Source: Rheinheimera sp.
GTDB lineage: Bacteria; Pseudomonadota; Gammaproteobacteria; Enterobacterales; Alteromonadaceae
Reading direction: 5' to 3'
Assembly (NCBI RefSeq): GCF_030690345.1
Contig: NZ_JAUYGV010000006.1
Span: 372,001-436,000, forward strand
DNA: 64,000 nt
Position 1 is the first letter of the stretch; each line of letters begins with the position of its first letter. Both the position numbers and the translations under genes were made by a program. The notes under the pieces are model-generated. The model was given only the letters and a program-made list of their open reading frames with translations. It did no database searches and was not told the origin of the DNA. This document shows, in pieces, positions 26,291 through 35,295 of this stretch.

Positions 26291-29200
26291 TTAAAAGGCG
26301 TAACTGACGCCAAGCATAATATTATCAGCTTTATTCCCTTCCAGATGATAGCGGGTAAATGTCGTACGCAGTGTCAGATGCTGGTCCAGCGCATAACCGG
26401 CGCCAAGCGCCCAATAGATGTCGGTATCGCTGGCTTTATAGCTGATAAGGTTATCGCCGGCTGTGCTGCGGGTTTCGCTGTTCCAGGCAAACACCCCGGT
26501 TTGTACCGTTGCTGACCAACCGGCATGCTGCCATACGTGGTAAGCCAAGCCGCTGCGCACACCTTTGGCCAGCATAGGGCCTATGTCTGATATGCTGCGG
26601 TGGAATGCTTGCGGAGTGAGTGTTTCGCCACGCATACTGACACTGGCATCACCTAAATCCACGTAATGCGCCTGTATTGCCAGCCGCGGCGTGAAGTAGT
26701 AACTCAGGCCCAGCGCCCAGCTTCTGCCGCTGTTGTCGTATTGCAGTAACTCGGCTTCCGCCGGCAGTTGGCTGCGGATCTCGCCGGTTGACTGTTTCGT
26801 CGTGCTTTTGCCGAAAAACGCATCAACAGACCAGTTAGCGCTGGCACTACAGCTCAGCGTTGCCACTAACATCAATAACGCTTTCAGCAGTACCCGACGT
26901 TGGCGCAGCAGTGCCAGACAGGCCAGCAATAGTAGCGGCCAGCCATTAGCAGCACCACCGGACGATTTATTTACCACTGTTATCACCTCATATGCAGTAA
27001 CACTGATGAGCACTTCGCCGTTAACACTGCCGCCACGGTTATCGCTGACGGTAAAGCTGACGGTATCTGTGCCGGAGAACCCCTGCTGCGGCGTATAACC
27101 CAGGGTTTGCGCTGCAGTGATTGTTACCGTGCCATGTTGCGCGCTGGCGCTGCTGATAACAAGCGCATCGCCATCCGGATCGCTGGCATTGGCCAGTACA
27201 TCAATATCGATTGCCGTTTGGTCATTGGTGTCGGCTGTGGCATTGGTTACCAGCGGCGCTCTGTTGTAATACACTGCCACGCTCACCGTGGCACCGGCGC
27301 TACCGTTATTGCCATCGTTAATGCCATAACTAAGGGTGTCAGTGCCGACAAAATCCTGCGCCGGGGTGTATAGCAACGTCAGGCCATCATCACTGATGCT
27401 AACACTGCCAAATGCGGCAGAGGCCTGGTTAATGCTCAGCGTATCACCATCTGCATCGGTGTCATTTTGCAGTACGTCCAGGGTATGGCTTTGGTTCCAC
27501 TGTACCTGGTAGCTGTCGTCGGTTGCTACAGGCAGCTGGTTACCATTGAGGATAACGGCCACACCGCCCGGGTCAACAATAGTGCTGTTGGCCAGGCCGT
27601 CGGCGTCGTTAGCACCGCCATCTTCTATCAGTAACTGTACACACCAGTGGCCGGCGGTTAAGCCGTTTTGCCAGCTGTTGTCGCCAGGCGGAGGACAGAA
27701 ACCCGGCTCGCCGGCAGCGCTGAACAACTGATTGCGCTCGTTTTGCACAAAGTTGCTCCAGCCATTGGCTTGAGTAAATTTACGGTACACCGCATTTTGC
27801 GGCACCGGCTGACGCTGCGGCAATACCAGACGATAACCGGCACCGGCAACAGGCAGGCTATGCAGCATAAAGTCGAAGCTGCCGCCGATATTAGCGGCCA
27901 GCATATCCGGCTCCAGAGCTTGTTGGTCTGCCGTTGTCAGCTGAATACCACCGGAGTTGCTCAGTGCTGCTGTTGTGCCTTTGCGCAGGCAGATACCGGG
28001 CTCGCCTTCAGCGACAAATTGCACAACGTTAGCCAGTTGTTCCGGAATGACGTTGCAGTCAAAGCCCGGATCCAGATAGTCAGGAATACCATTGCTGTTA
28101 CTGTCACCGAAGCCTTCAACATTGTCAGCTATCAGGTTGTTATTGCTGTCGCTATCATCCAGCAGCGGCAAGCTGTCCTGCACCAGCAGGTAAATTTCGG
28201 CGGTGCTGCTCAGCGGCTCAACGGCATCATCAGTGGCTGTCAGCGCAATACGATAGACGCCGCTGGCCAGGCCTGCAGGGTCAAACACAAACTGCATCGC
28301 ATCACCCGAGATATTGCTCAGCGCCGCATCAGCTTGCCATTGCAGACCGGCACTGTCACCCGGATTCGGATCGCTGACCTGCGCGGTAATGCTTGCTACG
28401 CCACCGGCTTTACTTAGTGTCAGGCGGTTTTCGCCCTGTTGCTGTGCATTCAGTACTACCACTGGAGCCAGGTTAGCTTCTGTAACGCTGATGGTAGTAC
28501 TGGCGTTGGCTCCAAGGTTCAGGCCGGTATCCAGAGTAATCACAATATCTTTTTCTGCCACGCTGCTTAAATCAGCGAACAGGTTAAAGCTGAAGCTGGC
28601 GCGCAGCCCGGAGCTAATTTGTACCGAGCCTGCTGCCAGATCATGCTCGGTCAGGGCATCGGCAGAGCCGCTGACCGTGTAAGCCACCTCCAGCGGGTAA
28701 ACCGGTGCCTGGCCATTCAGTATCACCTCTACTGTAACTGTGCTGTTGTTAATCACGGTTTGCGGTTTGCTTAACGACACTAACGGGTTTACCTGCAGTA
28801 ACTGAGTCACAGTGCTGCTCTGGCCGCTGGCATCGGTTGCCCGCCAGTACAGTTCGTGGCTGCCGGCGGCAAACATTGGCAAGCCGTTAACCAGCGATAC
28901 GGCCAGCCGGTTACCGTTAACATCAACTGCGGTCGCCACGCCGACATCGACCTTGGTAAATAAGCCGCTGGCATTGATGATCAAATCATCCGGTGCGGTA
29001 ATAACCGGTGCATCCGGGTTACTGCCTGCAATTTGCAGTGTTACCTGCGCCATATCGCTTAGCTCGCCATCGCTGATGTTATAGCTGAAAGAGGTGGTAC
29101 CACTGAAATTGTCCGGGGCAGTAAACAGCAGTTTATTATTCTGCACACTAACCAGACCAATACCGGCTTTAGCCGCTGTAATAGTCAGGCTGTCGTCGTC

Positions 29201-32200
29201 CGGGTCGGTATCGTTAGCGGCTACATCCAGCAGATAGGTATGGTTGGCGCTAAACGGTAGTTCAATATTGTCATCTACCGCTACCGGCGCGGCATTAACG
29301 TTAATAACTTCCAGGTTAAACGCATCCAGGCTGGCGGTAAATTCGCCATCAGACACACTGATCACAATACCGCTGGTAGTACCTACATGTTCTTTCGCCG
29401 GGGTGCCGGTTAACGCGCCGCTGGCAGAATCAAAACTTGCCCAGGTTGGTTTATTGGTAATGCTAAAGGTCAGGGTGTCGTCGTCGGGATCAGACACCGT
29501 TGGCTCAAAGTTGTAGCTTTCGTCCTGATTAACCGTGATAGCAGGTGTGCCGCTTATTTCCGGTGCCTCATTTACTGCGCTGACTTCGATGTTAAATGCA
29601 TTCAGACTGGCGCTAAGTACACCATCACTAACACTGATAACAATACCTGTCGTTGTCCCGACATCATCCCGTGTTGGCGTACCACTTAATGCGCCGGTCG
29701 TTGTGTTAAAGCTGGCCCAGGCTGGTTTGTTGCTAATGCTAAATGTCAGACTGTCGTTTTCAGCATCAGTGGTAACCGGTGTAAACAAATATGCGTTGCC
29801 ACGAGATACCTGAGTAGGTGGTATACCGCTAATCTCTGGTGCACTGTTTAATGTAATACTGTTGGACGCCGCAGAAGCTGCGCTGACGCCTGCTGAGTTG
29901 GTAGCAGTTACTGTGAAGGTGTAGGCCTTACCACCAGACAAACCTGTAACGGTTATTGGGGATCCGTTACCTGATACCGACAGATTATCCGGGCTGGACG
30001 TAACCTTATAGGAGCTGATAGCGCTACCACCTTTAAAAGCCGGAGCACTGAACGTTACGCTGGCTGCTGTGCCTGACACTGCAGTAGCTGAACCGATAGT
30101 TGGAGCGCCCGGCACAACAGCGGCAACGTTAAAACTGCGGTTAACCTGCGGTGCAGCAAGATAAGCGGCATTCCCCGCCTGGTCTGCATTAATCGAACAG
30201 CTACCGGTAGCGACAAAAGTTAAGGCGCCGCCGGAAGTTATAGTGCACACCCCTGTAGTCGATGAGGTAAAGCTTACCGTCAAGCCGGAGTTCGACGTCG
30301 CTGTCAGCGTTGGATTGGTACCAAAATTCTGCGCGCCGGGGTTAGCAAAGGTAATGATCTGAGCTGCCGCCGGTGTAGTAGCGTTAGATGCTGCCGAGGC
30401 AACACCGGTGCCGGCACTGTTAGTTGCCGTAACGCTAAAGGTATAAGCCGTGCCGTTAGTTAAACCGTTAACGACTACCGGCGAGCCGGCACCAACGCCG
30501 GTAAGGCCACCGGGGTTGGACGTAACCGTATAACCGGTAATATTAACGCCGCCATTACTCGCCGGGGCGGTAAAGGCAATGCTTGCAGCAGTATCAGCTG
30601 CAGTGGCAACAACAGCCGTAGGTGCACCGGGCACTACCGGGTTAACAATAAAGGTCCGGCTTACCTGAGGAGCGGGCAAGTAGCTACCATTACCGGCTTG
30701 ATCGGCATTGATTGTACAGGTACCCGTGGTCACAAACGTCAGTGCGCCTGCCGCGGTTATAGTACAAACCGCTGGTGTTGAAGAGGTAAATACCGGTGTT
30801 AAACCGGAGTCGGTCGTTGCTGTCAGGGTTGGTGTAGTACCAAAGTTCTGCGCCCCCGGGTTGGCAAAGGTAATAGTTTGGATAGCAGCCGGCGTTATTG
30901 AGTTGGAGGCTGCCGATGCAGGGCCGGTGCCTGCAACGTTGTTTGCCGTTACGGTAAAAGTATAGGCCTGGCCATTGGTTAAACCGGCCACCACAATCGG
31001 GGATGACGCACCGAGTATCGGCGCAACATCTGCTGGGTTTACCGTTACTGTATAACCGGTAATCGCCGCGCCGCCGATATTCACCGGGGCCACAAAGGCA
31101 ACACTGGCCTGGGTATCACCGGCGATTGCAGTCCCTATGGTTGGTGCATTGGGCACTACCGGGTTAACGGTGAAAGAGCGGCTCACTTGTAACGCAGGCA
31201 GGAAGGAGGAATCACCCGCTTGGTCCGCATTGATCGTACAAGTACCCGCCGCAACAAATGTTAGTGTACCACCGCTGGTGATGTTACAAACGCCGGTTGT
31301 CGATGAAGTGAACGTCACCGTATAGCCAGCTCCGGCAGATGAAGTGGCTGTAAGCGTTGGCGTAGTATTAAAGTTCTGCGCTCCGGGATTATTAAAGGTA
31401 ATGGTTTGCGTGCCTTTGGGGATCACAGCATTAGATGGCGCTGAAGCAACGCTATTGCCTTTAATATTGGTCGCTGTCACGGTAAAGCTGTAGGAGGTAC
31501 CGTTATCCAGGCCGTTTACGCTAATGGTGCAAGCTGCAGGGCCGGCACAGTTACCTGAGGCGCCGCCGGGGCTGGCAGTAGCGGTATAAGTGGTAATGGC
31601 CGAGCCGCCGTTATTGCCAGGAGCAGTAAAGGTTACACTGGCCTGGGTATTACCTGCAGTGGCTGTGCCTATGGTTGGGGCGTCGGGTACCGTTATACCA
31701 TCCACCAGCACAGATGCTGTACTGCCGACACTGTTCAGTGTCAGATTCATATTATTGCCGGAACCGTCTTGCAGCGTAGCGTTATTGGCGTCAATCACGC
31801 CGGCGACAGCAATACCGTTAGCATCAAAGTCACCGGGCTGGGCGGTATAACGGAAGGTTAACCAGGGCGAAGCTGAACCGGAGATGTAGCTGGCGTAGCG
31901 CGTGCTGGCGCCAACCGTCAGTGCAATGCGCGGTGTGCCGCCATTAGTGTCGACAACAACATCACTGACAGCAGCAATATTAACCACAAAATCCAGGTTT
32001 TGCCCTGCAATATAGGTGGCATTGGCCGGCACACTAACGCTACCGACGACAGGGGCGGCATTATCCACAGCAGCATTGCTGGTATCGGCCCGGGTTGCGC
32101 TGTTACCGGCGTTATCGGTAGCGGTAACCGACACATTGCGGCCACCGGCTTCTATCGCACCGGCAACGACAGTGTAAGTAGCTGTCCAGGTGCCGGCGCT

Positions 32201-34450
32201 GTTGCTGGCGGCAACTGTACCGCCACCAAACTGACTGAAATTAACAGTCACGCCACTAATGGTATCGCTATTATTATCTCCGCCTGCGGTATTGTTCCAG
32301 CTGGCGGTGACAGTGTCGCCGACAATATAAGTTCCGCCAGAGCCGGTGCCGCCGGAAATACTGATCCGTGCATCAGTTACTGTTGGGGCTATGTTGTCGA
32401 CAGTAGCATTTGTAGTGTCAGCAGCGGTGGTGGGGCCGTCTGCATTGCTGGCGGTGACGCTGATATTACGATTGGTAGTATCAATGGCGCCTGCCGTAAT
32501 GGTATAGGTTGCGGTCCAGCTGCCGGCGCTATTAGTGGCAACCACTGCAGCACCGCCGCCAAACTGGGAAAAATCTGTCGTAACACCGGTAATGCCGGCG
32601 TTATTATCGCCGCCGCCGGTATTGTTCCACGTTACGCTGATGGTATCGCCAATTTTATAAGCACCACCGGTACCTGTTGCACCGGAAATGCTGATGTTGC
32701 CATCGGTGACGACGGGAAATGGGGCGTAGTTGGTGTCGGTAGTGCCACCGCCTGTGGTGTGTATCTGCGAGGTCGACACGCCGGCAGCGCCGTTTGAGCT
32801 GCTGCCATCGTTTGTTAAGCCAATACCACCGGCTGCACCAATATTGCCCGTTGCCAATGACGTGTTCGTAGCGGTGTCTATCTGAACGGTGCCTCCGGCA
32901 TTCCAGATGGCACCAATACCAGATCCCGCATCGCCGCCATTACCACTGATACCACTAGTACCACCGCCACCGCCACCACCGCCAGCGCCGACGTTATTGG
33001 TGATACTGCTACTTGTGACGGTGAGCAAACCAGTGTTGTAGATGCCGCCCGTCGCATTGCCGGCCCGACCGCCTCCAAATGAGTAGCCACCGCCGCCGCC
33101 GCCGCCACCGATGCTAATCGAACCATTGCTGGCGGTGCCGCCATTGCCGCCATTGGTGTAACTGTTTCCGTAGGTTGCGCCCGTACCGCCGCTAGATGTG
33201 CCGCCACGCCCGACCAGGTTACCAAAGCCAGCACCGTCGCCCCCCGCGCCTGCCGAGGCCGAACCTGCCGTATGTGTCGGGTTAGTGCCGCCGGCACCGC
33301 CAAAAGTCGTGCCGAAACCACCACCGCCACCACCAGCACCGCCTCCACCTCCCGCGCCACCGCCACCACCACCGCCGCCAGCTGCTTTACCTGCGGTGAT
33401 GGTAGAGTTAGTAATTATGAGCGTCCCGGTATTGCGGATATTGGCACCCAATGCATCGCCACCAGCAAGTCCGACACCGTTGCCCGGGGTATTACCACCG
33501 TTGCCGGTCAAGAAACCGTTGCTAATTGTCAGGCCACTGATAGCGACTTCTGAGCCTGCACCCGATGATGCAACATCCAGTACCCGCGTAAGGTTATTGC
33601 CGTTGAGCGTAAAGCCGCCGCCGACAATTGACATAGTCTTGCCATCGGTGACATTGATTGAAATGGCGTCAGCTGCTGAAGCGAAGCTGATATTACCGGT
33701 TAAAGTGATCACGTCGTCGAGGCCATCGGTGTTACCAGTGGCAATAGCGGCTTTAAGTTGTGCAACTGAGTTAACACTGGTTGTTACCAAGGTGTGATTG
33801 TAATTATCCAGTCGGTTTGCCAGCAACGCCCGGCCACTGTCAATCTTACCGGTGGTAATCTCCAGATCCCAGTTCCCGCCAGCAGTATTCCCCCCTGTTT
33901 TGTCATCAGATGCTGCAATATCGGCACCGGTTAACTGCGACAGTTGCGCCAGAAATGCAGCCCCTTTTGCGCCATTGGCAACATCACAACCATAGAGTTT
34001 GATATCGCCATTCTCTGTCAACGCAGCGCCTATAGACTGTAACTGGTTGCTGTACTGACTGATATTTTCCACTGACAGCGGCTCATTGCCCAGCAGCAGC
34101 GAACCTTTATCACCATGTGAAATGATATGAATGGCGGCTATATTGCGGCGCTGTTTTACATAGTTTGCTAGCTGCGCCACACCATTGCTGTCGGCGTCTA
34201 TAAAGATAACTTCAGTACCTGGCTTTATAGCCTTGAGGATAGTACTGATGTCCGGTACTCGTGAATCAATAAACACCAGCTCCGGGCCTGTATAACCTGC
34301 TTCGATAAACGCTGCGGCTTGCGTGTTGTCTGAAATGCCGGAAAGTGGCAGAGCGAGTGCCACCTGCACTGAACTGGCCAGCAACGTTGTAACAAACAGC
34401 GTTTTGCATAGCGGCTTTGTAACAGTTGTAACGGGGGGTTGAACTGGCAT
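26291..34450 (-). CDS. giant modular surface protein: DUF4347, Gly-rich, Ig/Fn3/cadherin-like repeats, internal GlyGly-CTERM, C-terminal beta-barrel
   Basis: 2719 residues from ATG 34450 (AGGAAAG upstream). Order: signal peptide (about 1-35, ending QVALA); DUF4347 (about 55-205) with IHIISHGDKG and LYGCDVANG; a region with very Gly-rich stretches (about 350-520); two near-identical about 100-residue Ig-like repeats (about 590-850); four Fn3-like units alternating with three QTITFxNPGAQNF repeats (about 920-1530); two putative-Ig units (PEISGxP...FSIxNKPxWASF); cadherin-like and HYR-like units; a DSDSNNNLIADNVEG calcium-type segment; two VxQNDTDADGD cadherin repeats. Near 2500, SSGGAANGWPLLLLACLALL plus RQRR resembles a GlyGly-CTERM rhombosortase signal. 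It is followed by a second signal-like segment (LLKALLMLVATLSCSASA) and an about 180-residue OM barrel ending in SYAF. Likely cell-surface adhesion or matrix role (inference). Confidence 0.85.
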   Translation of the reverse strand: MPVQPPVTTVTKPLCKTLFVTTLLASSVQVALALPLSGISDNTQAAAFIEAGYTGPELVFIDSRVPDISTILKAIKPGTEVIFIDADSNGVAQLANYVKQRRNIAAIHIISHGDKGSLLLGNEPLSVENISQYSNQLQSIGAALTENGDIKLYGCDVANGAKGAAFLAQLSQLTGADIAASDDKTGGNTAGGNWDLEITTGKIDSGRALLANRLDNYNHTLVTTSVNSVAQLKAAIATGNTDGLDDVITLTGNISFASAADAISINVTDGKTMSIVGGGFTLNGNNLTRVLDVASSGAGSEVAISGLTISNGFLTGNGGNTPGNGVGLAGGDALGANIRNTGTLIITNSTITAGKAAGGGGGGGGAGGGGGAGGGGGGFGTTFGGAGGTNPTHTAGSASAGAGGDGAGFGNLVGRGGTSSGGTGATYGNSYTNGGNGGTASNGSISIGGGGGGGGYSFGGGRAGNATGGIYNTGLLTVTSSSITNNVGAGGGGGGGGTSGISGNGGDAGSGIGAIWNAGGTVQIDTATNTSLATGNIGAAGGIGLTNDGSSSNGAAGVSTSQIHTTGGGTTDTNYAPFPVVTDGNISISGATGTGGAYKIGDTISVTWNNTGGGDNNAGITGVTTDFSQFGGGAAVVATNSAGSWTATYTITAGAIDTTNRNISVTASNADGPTTAADTTNATVDNIAPTVTDARISISGGTGSGGTYIVGDTVTASWNNTAGGDNNSDTISGVTVNFSQFGGGTVAASNSAGTWTATYTVVAGAIEAGGRNVSVTATDNAGNSATRADTSNAAVDNAAPVVGSVSVPANATYIAGQNLDFVVNIAAVSDVVVDTNGGTPRIALTVGASTRYASYISGSASPWLTFRYTAQPGDFDANGIAVAGVIDANNATLQDGSGNNMNLTLNSVGSTASVLVDGITVPDAPTIGTATAGNTQASVTFTAPGNNGGSAITTYTATASPGGASGNCAGPAACTISVNGLDNGTSYSFTVTATNIKGNSVASAPSNAVIPKGTQTITFNNPGAQNFNTTPTLTATSSAGAGYTVTFTSSTTGVCNITSGGTLTFVAAGTCTINADQAGDSSFLPALQVSRSFTVNPVVPNAPTIGTAIAGDTQASVAFVAPVNIGGAAITGYTVTVNPADVAPILGASSPIVVAGLTNGQAYTFTVTANNVAGTGPASAASNSITPAAIQTITFANPGAQNFGTTPTLTATTDSGLTPVFTSSTPAVCTITAAGALTFVTTGTCTINADQAGNGSYLPAPQVSRTFIVNPVVPGAPTAVVATAADTAASIAFTAPASNGGVNITGYTVTSNPGGLTGVGAGSPVVVNGLTNGTAYTFSVTATNSAGTGVASAASNATTPAAAQIITFANPGAQNFGTNPTLTATSNSGLTVSFTSSTTGVCTITSGGALTFVATGSCSINADQAGNAAYLAAPQVNRSFNVAAVVPGAPTIGSATAVSGTAASVTFSAPAFKGGSAISSYKVTSSPDNLSVSGNGSPITVTGLSGGKAYTFTVTATNSAGVSAASAASNSITLNSAPEISGIPPTQVSRGNAYLFTPVTTDAENDSLTFSISNKPAWASFNTTTGALSGTPTRDDVGTTTGIVISVSDGVLSASLNAFNIEVSAVNEAPEISGTPAITVNQDESYNFEPTVSDPDDDTLTFSITNKPTWASFDSASGALTGTPAKEHVGTTSGIVISVSDGEFTASLDAFNLEVINVNAAPVAVDDNIELPFSANHTYLLDVAANDTDPDDDSLTITAAKAGIGLVSVQNNKLLFTAPDNFSGTTSFSYNISDGELSDMAQVTLQIAGSNPDAPVITAPDDLIINASGLFTKVDVGVATAVDVNGNRLAVSLVNGLPMFAAGSHELYWRATDASGQSSTVTQLLQVNPLVSLSKPQTVINNSTVTVEVILNGQAPVYPLEVAYTVSGSADALTEHDLAAGSVQISSGLRASFSFNLFADLSSVAEKDIVITLDTGLNLGANASTTISVTEANLAPVVVLNAQQQGENRLTLSKAGGVASITAQVSDPNPGDSAGLQWQADAALSNISGDAMQFVFDPAGLASGVYRIALTATDDAVEPLSSTAEIYLLVQDSLPLLDDSDSNNNLIADNVEGFGDSNSNGIPDYLDPGFDCNVIPEQLANVVQFVAEGEPGICLRKGTTAALSNSGGIQLTTADQQALEPDMLAANIGGSFDFMLHSLPVAGAGYRLVLPQRQPVPQNAVYRKFTQANGWSNFVQNERNQLFSAAGEPGFCPPPGDNSWQNGLTAGHWCVQLLIEDGGANDADGLANSTIVDPGGVAVILNGNQLPVATDDSYQVQWNQSHTLDVLQNDTDADGDTLSINQASAAFGSVSISDDGLTLLYTPAQDFVGTDTLSYGINDGNNGSAGATVSVAVYYNRAPLVTNATADTNDQTAIDIDVLANASDPDGDALVISSASAQHGTVTITAAQTLGYTPQQGFSGTDTVSFTVSDNRGGSVNGEVLISVTAYEVITVVNKSSGGAANGWPLLLLACLALLRQRRVLLKALLMLVATLSCSASANWSVDAFFGKSTTKQSTGEIRSQLPAEAELLQYDNSGRSWALGLSYYFTPRLAIQAHYVDLGDASVSMRGETLTPQAFHRSISDIGPMLAKGVRSGLAYHVWQHAGWSATVQTGVFAWNSETRSTAGDNLISYKASDTDIYWALGAGYALDQHLTLRTTFTRYHLEGNKADNIMLGVSYAF

Positions 34451-34467
34451 AGTGCTTTCCTGCAAAG

Positions 34468-35295
34468 TTATGGCTGTTTAATTCGGATTACATTGGCTTG
34501 GCTGCTGGTATCTTGATCCCAGAAATTCATTGCAGCGTAACGGTCAAATAAATCGGGAGGTAATATGGTTTGTCGGGATGCAACCGCAACCTGGCTGCGG
34601 ATCCGGTGTAGGCCAGATAAACCAAGATTTTGGTCAAATTCGGGAGTGTCAAAAGCAACATCGTCAAAACGGTGCTCGAACCAGGGCTCACCGATGAACT
34701 GATAAACTAACCTCAGCACTTTTTCCGGCGCCTCGGTTAGCAGCTGATAGTCAACCAGCAATACAGAGCTGGCGTATGGGCTGTAATATGCCTCTTTCAG
34801 TGCTGTCCAGGCAAAACCCACCATGCGATTAGACATTGCCAGCGTGTCTGTGCGGCTATATACCGTATTGCGCTCAGCCTCATCATTAAACAGTCGGCTG
34901 TTTTCAAAAGGGTCTGCACTATAAAGTCGTTCTAAACTGTCCATGATCCAAGCGACATTGCGCACGCAAGCAATGACTTTGCTTTGGGGAAATAACTTTT
35001 GCAGTAATGGTAAGCGCGCGCACCACAATCGGTTGGTGTCGAATATAACCTGCTTATCCTGCTGTTCGGTGTAATAGCTGGAAAACAGTCCTTGCAACAA
35101 TGATTGGCGTTGTGCTGTGGAAACCAAAGATGCGTGTTCACTGCCGGCACTGAATTGCTGCAGCATACTCGTCAGTAATGGCGCTACCGGGCTGGAAATG
35201 CTAGCGTAAAATGCTGGGTTCTGTCGCAAAATTGCTGACAGCAGGGTAGACCCTGAGCGCGGCAAACCGGAAATAAAATGAAACTGTTGCGGCAT
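34468..35295 (-). CDS. sulfotransferase family protein
   Basis: 275 residues, cytoplasmic. GLPRSGSTLLSAIL at residue 10 is the 5'-PSB loop that holds the PAPS phosphosulfate donor; CVRNVAWIMDSLERLYS near 109 resembles the 3'-phosphate-binding RxPxxxxxS region. It transfers sulfate from PAPS to an unknown acceptor. The next gene on the strand, the giant surface protein, begins 17 nt after its stop, so the two share an operon. No PAPS-synthesis genes are in the window. Confidence 0.85.
   Translation of the reverse strand: MPQQFHFISGLPRSGSTLLSAILRQNPAFYASISSPVAPLLTSMLQQFSAGSEHASLVSTAQRQSLLQGLFSSYYTEQQDKQVIFDTNRLWCARLPLLQKLFPQSKVIACVRNVAWIMDSLERLYSADPFENSRLFNDEAERNTVYSRTDTLAMSNRMVGFAWTALKEAYYSPYASSVLLVDYQLLTEAPEKVLRLVYQFIGEPWFEHRFDDVAFDTPEFDQNLGLSGLHRIRSQVAVASRQTILPPDLFDRYAAMNFWDQDTSSQANVIRIKQP

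Follow-up and report, generated by a model that had tools for sequence, protein, structure and literature searches.

The window, by which we mean the whole stretch of 64,000 nucleotides of Rheinheimera sp. DNA that was analysed, carried on its minus strand an open reading frame of 2719 aa (26291..34450; ATG at 34448–34450, stop at 26291–26293), for which the earliest start given by the ORF finder was a TTG at 34465. All features described below lie on this strand. From the N- to the C-terminus, the protein began with a Sec-type signal peptide judged by eye (residues 1–33; 34352..34450), a DUF4347 domain (PF14252, 197.5 bits in Pfam; 33788..34279) and a glycine-rich stretch, followed by a stalk of FN3, He_PIG, Big_9 and cadherin-like repeats recognised by Pfam and NCBIfam (26993..32650, limits approximate), with a choice-of-anchor U domain (NF041766 in NCBIfam, 34.2 bits, cut-off 32; 27554..27883) among the last repeats. 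After the repeats came a GlyGly-CTERM tail, a basic RQRR cluster, a second signal peptide, an OMP_b-brl barrel and the stop. Scans of the full protein (Pfam, NCBIfam) used the sequence minus its first Met. A sulfotransferase-family gene (34468..35295, minus strand) ended 17 nt before the polyprotein ATG and is possibly co-transcribed with it; L003 and L005 likewise had a homologue of this gene upstream of the giant one, and L014, L050 and L056 gave partial matches. A phage origin was considered and set aside, as the search found no match.

Translation of the C-terminal part gave …AYEVITVVNKSSGGAANGWPLLLLACLALL-RQRR-VLLKALLMLVATLSCSASA-NWSVDAFF…LGVSYAF*, with no stop inside. A preliminary description of this DNA had reported a GlyGly-CTERM tail followed by RQRR within the reading frame, and this was confirmed: the internal signal occupied residues 2497–2518 (26897..26962), with Gly-Gly at residues 2498–2499 (counted from the ATG at 34448–34450), a rhombosortase cut predicted after Gly2499 and the RQRR cluster (26894..26905) predicted to form a cytoplasmic loop. 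Against TIGR03501, the GlyGly-CTERM model (cut-off 15.5 bits), the tail scored 16.4 bits in a genome search and 16.9 bits on a 42-residue segment, where it was the top match among all families, versus only 9.2 bits on a 243-residue C-terminal piece, below cut-off. With scores on both sides of 15.5, the tail lies near the threshold of the model, and TIGR03501 was absent from the family list obtained with the full-length protein. MYXO-CTERM (TIGR03901, cut-off 20) stayed below its cut-off on both the 243-residue piece (12.8 bits) and the segment (15.8 bits). A position at the extreme C-terminus may help to tell the substrates of rhombosortase apart from proteins cut by other rhomboids, according to the available text of Haft and Varghese (PMC3237569); in the window protein, ~220 residues lay between the signal and the stop. 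Six other places in the host genome exceeded the TIGR03501 cut-off; five were full ORFs that ended 21–37 residues past the motif start, making the window protein the exception among them, and the sixth (L098) lay in a 41-residue frame. By its sequence, we regard the window protein as an internal variant of the GlyGly-CTERM proteins and not as a standard member.

The in-frame second Sec-type signal and the barrel of about 180 residues with an aromatic end, also described previously, were both present. The second signal peptide, VLLKALLMLVATLSCSASA (26837..26893), ended in …SASA^NWS with a signal peptidase I cut predicted after residue 2538, and ran without a stop into a barrel of 181 residues (residues 2539–2719; 26294..26836) whose last residue was Phe. 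This barrel passed Pfam OMP_b-brl (PF13505) with 40.9 bits (cut-off 28.7), and a profile built from 39 barrels matched OmpA in the PDB (E 2.6e-12). The best AlphaFold2 model of the barrel (pLDDT 72, pTM 0.63; the other four, pLDDT 32–45) had eight long strands, and its nearest solved folds included OmpA (top), Ail and OprF, with TM-scores about 0.6; a model of the whole tail was poor (pLDDT 39). Eight strands and a terminal aromatic are both features of OmpA-type barrels, and on profile and predicted fold together we assign the barrel to the OmpA type. The likeness is to the barrel domain of OmpA, which is itself a stand-alone protein with no sorted adhesin ahead of its barrel. No other close copy of the window barrel was found in the host genome at E ≤ 0.001, and a later profile search found a distant barrel-OmpA gene there (G000:C1:50037).

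A contig scan yielded 12 relative loci (nine from Rheinheimera, two from Arsukibacterium and one from a gammaproteobacterial MAG) with identities of 47–88%, and the junction was read through in frame in all 12 (contig ends cut L006 and L012 upstream and L014 inside the barrel). The preliminary description had named a stop between tail and barrel in orthologues as the mark of a frame error; such a stop was absent from every close relative, which ruled out this explanation, and its suggestion of two proteins fused with both signals kept proved to describe a real, conserved fusion. A complete Pseudoalteromonas record had a single annotated CDS over the same arrangement (WP_237115682.1), in which tail, second signal and barrel shared one frame, and Rheinheimera hassiensis carried two fused giant genes (L005 and L013) about 11.7 kb apart on one contig. 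Distant relatives with a stop mostly had a normal downstream start, and thus represent two-gene versions and give no sign of a frame error here. Across 13 aligned rows, AYEVITVVNKSSGG was nearly invariant; the predicted signal peptidase motif was SASA in the window and NTQA, NSQA or NAQA in relatives, and in Arsukibacterium a longer loop joined the two membrane segments with the frame kept. Ratios of pN/pS, computed over 36 pairs among 9 sequences, were 0.22 for the tail with its helix, 0.34 for the second signal peptide and 0.15 for the barrel, and we take the junction to be under purifying selection within the Rheinheimera group.

This architecture is conserved well beyond close relatives, and it exists in a linked two-gene version. 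Of 147 family genomes searched with the mature barrel sequence, 43 had it; the search was then widened with the barrel profile to 247 genomes of the order and 274 genomes of the class. Distant loci comprised 47 of the 50 family matches (all but the window and two close relatives from the same genus in long frames) and the 60 best-scoring new places (at least 79.2 bits in the order and at least 82.3 bits in the class). Classified by eye from printed tails, 52 of these 107 barrels were fused behind a GlyGly-type tail, 30 lay directly downstream of a separate tail-bearing gene, the arrangement that the preliminary description had suggested looking for in relatives, and 25 were unlinked; in these counts L149 was reassigned from unlinked to split, L084, L085 and L101 were cut by contig ends and scored unlinked, and the near-identical pairs L091/L092 and L104/L105, each pair in one genome, count twice. 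A strict automatic rule for the tripartite tail found one at the junction in 60 of the 107 loci and gave 44 fused, 16 split and 47 unlinked (L063 met the tail rule but exceeded the distance limit for split). Run on the six-frame translation of 1.415 Mb (127 loci), the same rule fired nine times outside junction windows, and it placed a tail in none of 20 generic barrels of the same order (weaker-scoring controls of 38.8–63.7 bits, hand-picked from the order list), on which ground we rejected a chance tail.

TIGR03501 matched 61 of 82 junction segments of relatives at E ≤ 10 (best E 2.7e-6), and the remaining 21 had no match at that level; the count includes four mis-extracted segments (L063, L064, L143 and L146). 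When correctly extracted, the L143 junction scored 15.3 bits, and the motif in L064 was degenerate. The tails of L116, L129, L132 and L149 matched no NCBIfam family, and the split tail of L147 was a JDVT-CTERM (50.7 bits, cut-off 27). Among the matches listed in a search of the 43 barrel genomes, at least 16 TIGR03501 matches stood just before a barrel.

In the split pairs, the median stop-to-start distance was 0 nt and 28 of 30 distances fell within −30 to +100 nt. A quick tree with many weak forks required at least 11 changes between fused and split (a count that ignores L149, with rows L084, L085, L092 and L105 left out), and well-supported branches alone forced at least four changes of the fused label versus all other rows. 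Fused loci spanned 17 family codes (18 with L181), and the passengers in the eight scanned were cadherin/Ig/FN3 repeats, DUF11 domains or a lactonase-type propeller. The interchange of fused and split forms, together with these differing passengers, suggests that the barrel is portable, serving as a partner to tagged surface proteins. A second fused tail-signal-barrel protein (L090, 1471 aa), whose passenger was a lactonase-type propeller, was found in G017, a same-genus genome that also holds a close relative of the window barrel. Among the best 10 new loci of a phylum-wide search, the two within the class were one fused and one not, and of the other eight, outside the class, seven were unlinked and one (L190) was masked just before the barrel.

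The host genome encoded a rhombosortase (TIGR03902, 165.2 bits, cut-off 84), the enzyme that the preliminary description had proposed looking for, and type II secretion as judged from GspD (548.7 bits, cut-off 351.35). Rhombosortase was detected in 145 of the 147 genomes of the family at E ≤ 1e-10, so that its presence or absence was uninformative there. Among second-round loci, 41 barrels were linked and 10 were not in genomes with rhombosortase over cut-off, compared with 3 linked and 6 not in genomes without it; linked barrels were thus commoner with the enzyme (Fisher p = 0.008, for loci that are not independent). Two of the three linked loci lacking rhombosortase over cut-off were fused loci of one genome (G244, 99% complete), and the third was in G301, which is 80% complete. 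One G244 locus, L127, had a GlyGly-type tail and a barrel fused behind it but lacked a second hydrophobic segment.

Taken together, we consider it probable that the window encodes a polyprotein of two outer-membrane partners, which would be cut by rhombosortase and signal peptidase to yield adhesin and barrel at 1:1, a ratio that would follow from their translation as one chain. The earlier proposal of a polyprotein cut at the GG site thus stands as the likeliest reading by comparison, with the cleavage itself predicted. We infer the two cleavages, the attachment to lipid, the formation of the complex and its part in adhesion as follows. The N-terminal signal peptide would start Sec export of the giant repeat protein. 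During Sec export, alternating hydrophobic and basic segments set topology; from this alternation, the GlyGly-CTERM helix would stop transfer, the RQRR loop would stay in the cytoplasm and the second hydrophobic stretch would act as a second signal peptide that restarts export. Signal peptidase I may then cut after SASA and release the barrel, which the BAM machinery would insert into the outer membrane; rhombosortase would cut after Gly-Gly, with the new C-terminus receiving a phospholipid-type anchor. Type II secretion would display the anchored protein on the surface, as with VesB, and surface protein and barrel would then work together as an adhesin complex.

An alternative is that translation of the barrel starts on its own within the long ORF, with two proteins made as from the split operons and the open frame reflecting only a lost stop codon. 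In split relatives the two genes are closely packed, often overlap and have good starts, so that fusion could be a small step, and a possible Shine-Dalgarno start was retained in the fused L012, L113, the near-identical L129–L131 and perhaps L064. We sought such starts ahead of the second hydrophobic core by n-region charge and Shine-Dalgarno match, and found them in 24 of 29 rows of split barrels versus 9 of 64 fused rows (L047, L051 and L100 among them through mis-parsing) and 5 of 57 well-parsed fused rows, i.e. those where automatic parsing recovered the two hydrophobic segments and the basic loop that separates them. The window itself had no in-frame ATG, GTG or TTG with a following positive charge from the first helix to the second hydrophobic core, and several well-supported clades were entirely fused, all of which makes separate initiation unlikely. 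We hold it equally doubtful that both hydrophobic segments stay uncut, leaving either an inner-membrane hairpin protein or adhesin and barrel as one chain. Cleavage of the window protein is predicted, which leaves room for an uncut chain, and covalent joining of adhesin and barrel can exist, since in L140 (G477) a repeat domain was joined straight to a barrel with neither tail nor second signal. However, the GG motif, helix, basic loop and AxA were retained in most fused forms and were lacking in L140, and inner-membrane helices would hardly let the barrel reach the outer membrane. The L140 ORF, of 581 aa, comprised OmpA-like and cadherin-like sequence (by eye), and G477 had no rhombosortase over cut-off. 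That the tail is an ordinary transmembrane segment resembling GlyGly-CTERM by chance, as the score below 15.5 on the longer piece might suggest, is very improbable given the scores above it in the two other searches, the matches at most junction segments, the tail-free control barrels and the association with rhombosortase among those non-independent loci.

The Bradyrhizobium FbcH cytochrome b/c1 polyprotein is a bacterial precursor that is divided at a signal peptide inside the chain; it differs from the polyprotein proposed here in that its proteins are unrelated and no sortase-type signal is involved. The closest arrangement in the available text of the literature was MXAN_5598 of Myxococcus xanthus, in which an internal MYXO-CTERM separates an adhesin region from a barrel-OmpA region; it was proposed to be the product of a gene fusion, its N-terminal part undergoing processing and anchoring (PMC11980579, the 2025 myxosortase paper). 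Internal MYXO-CTERM tags occur in rare cases, and MXAN_5598 is the one example detailed in the text available (PMC11980579). Compared by description, MXAN_5598 shares with the window protein the layout of a large adhesin region, an internal sorting tag and an outer-membrane barrel, but it uses MYXO-CTERM and myxosortase in place of GlyGly-CTERM and rhombosortase, has an extra OmpA cell-wall domain and belongs to another phylum. As MXAN_5598 is in print, the idea of an adhesin-tag-barrel fusion is, as far as the available text goes, already known for another tag and enzyme. VesB of Vibrio cholerae is cut after Gly-Gly, its new C-terminal glycine bears a glycerophosphoethanolamine group, and it needs type II secretion to reach the surface, according to the portions available (PMC6219818). 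For VesB, groups of +197 Da or +43 Da have been reported. VesB and other GlyGly-CTERM proteins of V. cholerae resemble the window protein in the tripartite signal, rhombosortase and type II secretion, but their signal is C-terminal and no barrel partner is mentioned in the available text (PMC6219818, PMC11389362, PMC13393428). Among the titles and abstract starts of the matches listed in our literature search, none described a GlyGly-CTERM tail followed by a barrel; within the reach of these searches, the new points are the version built on GlyGly-CTERM and rhombosortase, how widely it is spread, the occurrence of fused alongside split forms, and the scarcity of internal starts where the two are fused.

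TraA and TraB of myxobacteria provide a two-gene comparison. In the portions of these sources available, TraA has a C-terminal sorting tag and TraB a barrel with an OmpA domain, the two genes share a four-base overlap and are both required (PMC3325183, PMC6626042), and the two proteins form 1:1 complexes (PMC12045341). By description, this pair is like the present kind of protein in combining a tagged surface adhesin with a barrel partner, and its four-base overlap resembles that of the 12 of 30 split pairs here that overlapped by 1 or 4 nt; it is unlike the window in its two genes, the polymorphic recognition and cysteine-rich domains of TraA, and MYXO-CTERM. Pfam and NCBIfam listed no PA14-like recognition domain or cysteine-rich repeats in the window protein, and the Pfam scan found no OmpA cell-wall domain in its barrel part. 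Because it has neither recognition nor cysteine-rich domains, no MYXO-CTERM over cut-off and no OmpA domain, we judge the window protein not to be a TraA/TraB member. A barrel plus OmpA domain was present in L073 and L135, and the split partner in L073, with a barrel, a TSP_3 repeat (24.9 bits, cut-off 25, weak) and an OmpA domain, had the layout described for TraB. Outer-membrane exchange is demonstrated for TraA/TraB only, in the text available to us. It is a long shot, in our estimate, that rhombosortase-dependent Gammaproteobacteria have widespread TraA/TraB-like adhesins that join neighbouring cells, swap repeatedly between gene pairs and 1:1 polyproteins, and perhaps exchange outer-membrane material.

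These results suggest that GlyGly-CTERM, usually seen as a C-terminal signal, can function at an internal position together with a second signal peptide. They also suggest that many substrates of rhombosortase come with a barrel partner of their own, which annotation by C-terminal tags would miss. That the two genes have fused repeatedly is strong evidence for joint action of surface protein and barrel, a link noted only in myxobacteria in the available text of the literature found. The system also makes it possible to test directly whether rhombosortase accepts internal sites, and it opens a route to the outer-membrane partners of giant surface proteins. Since the upstream gene of L147 ends in JDVT-CTERM, other C-terminal tag systems may pair with such barrels as well. 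In addition, a barrel-OmpA gene of the same superfamily was found at L135:7057–10990 (host genome, G000:C1 near 50037) and also in L088 and L155 (the OmpA domain of this set was scanned in L135 only), in each case directly downstream of a gene for a protein with Big repeats and an ice-binding-like domain but without a GlyGly-type tail, which is possibly a parallel adhesin-barrel pairing.
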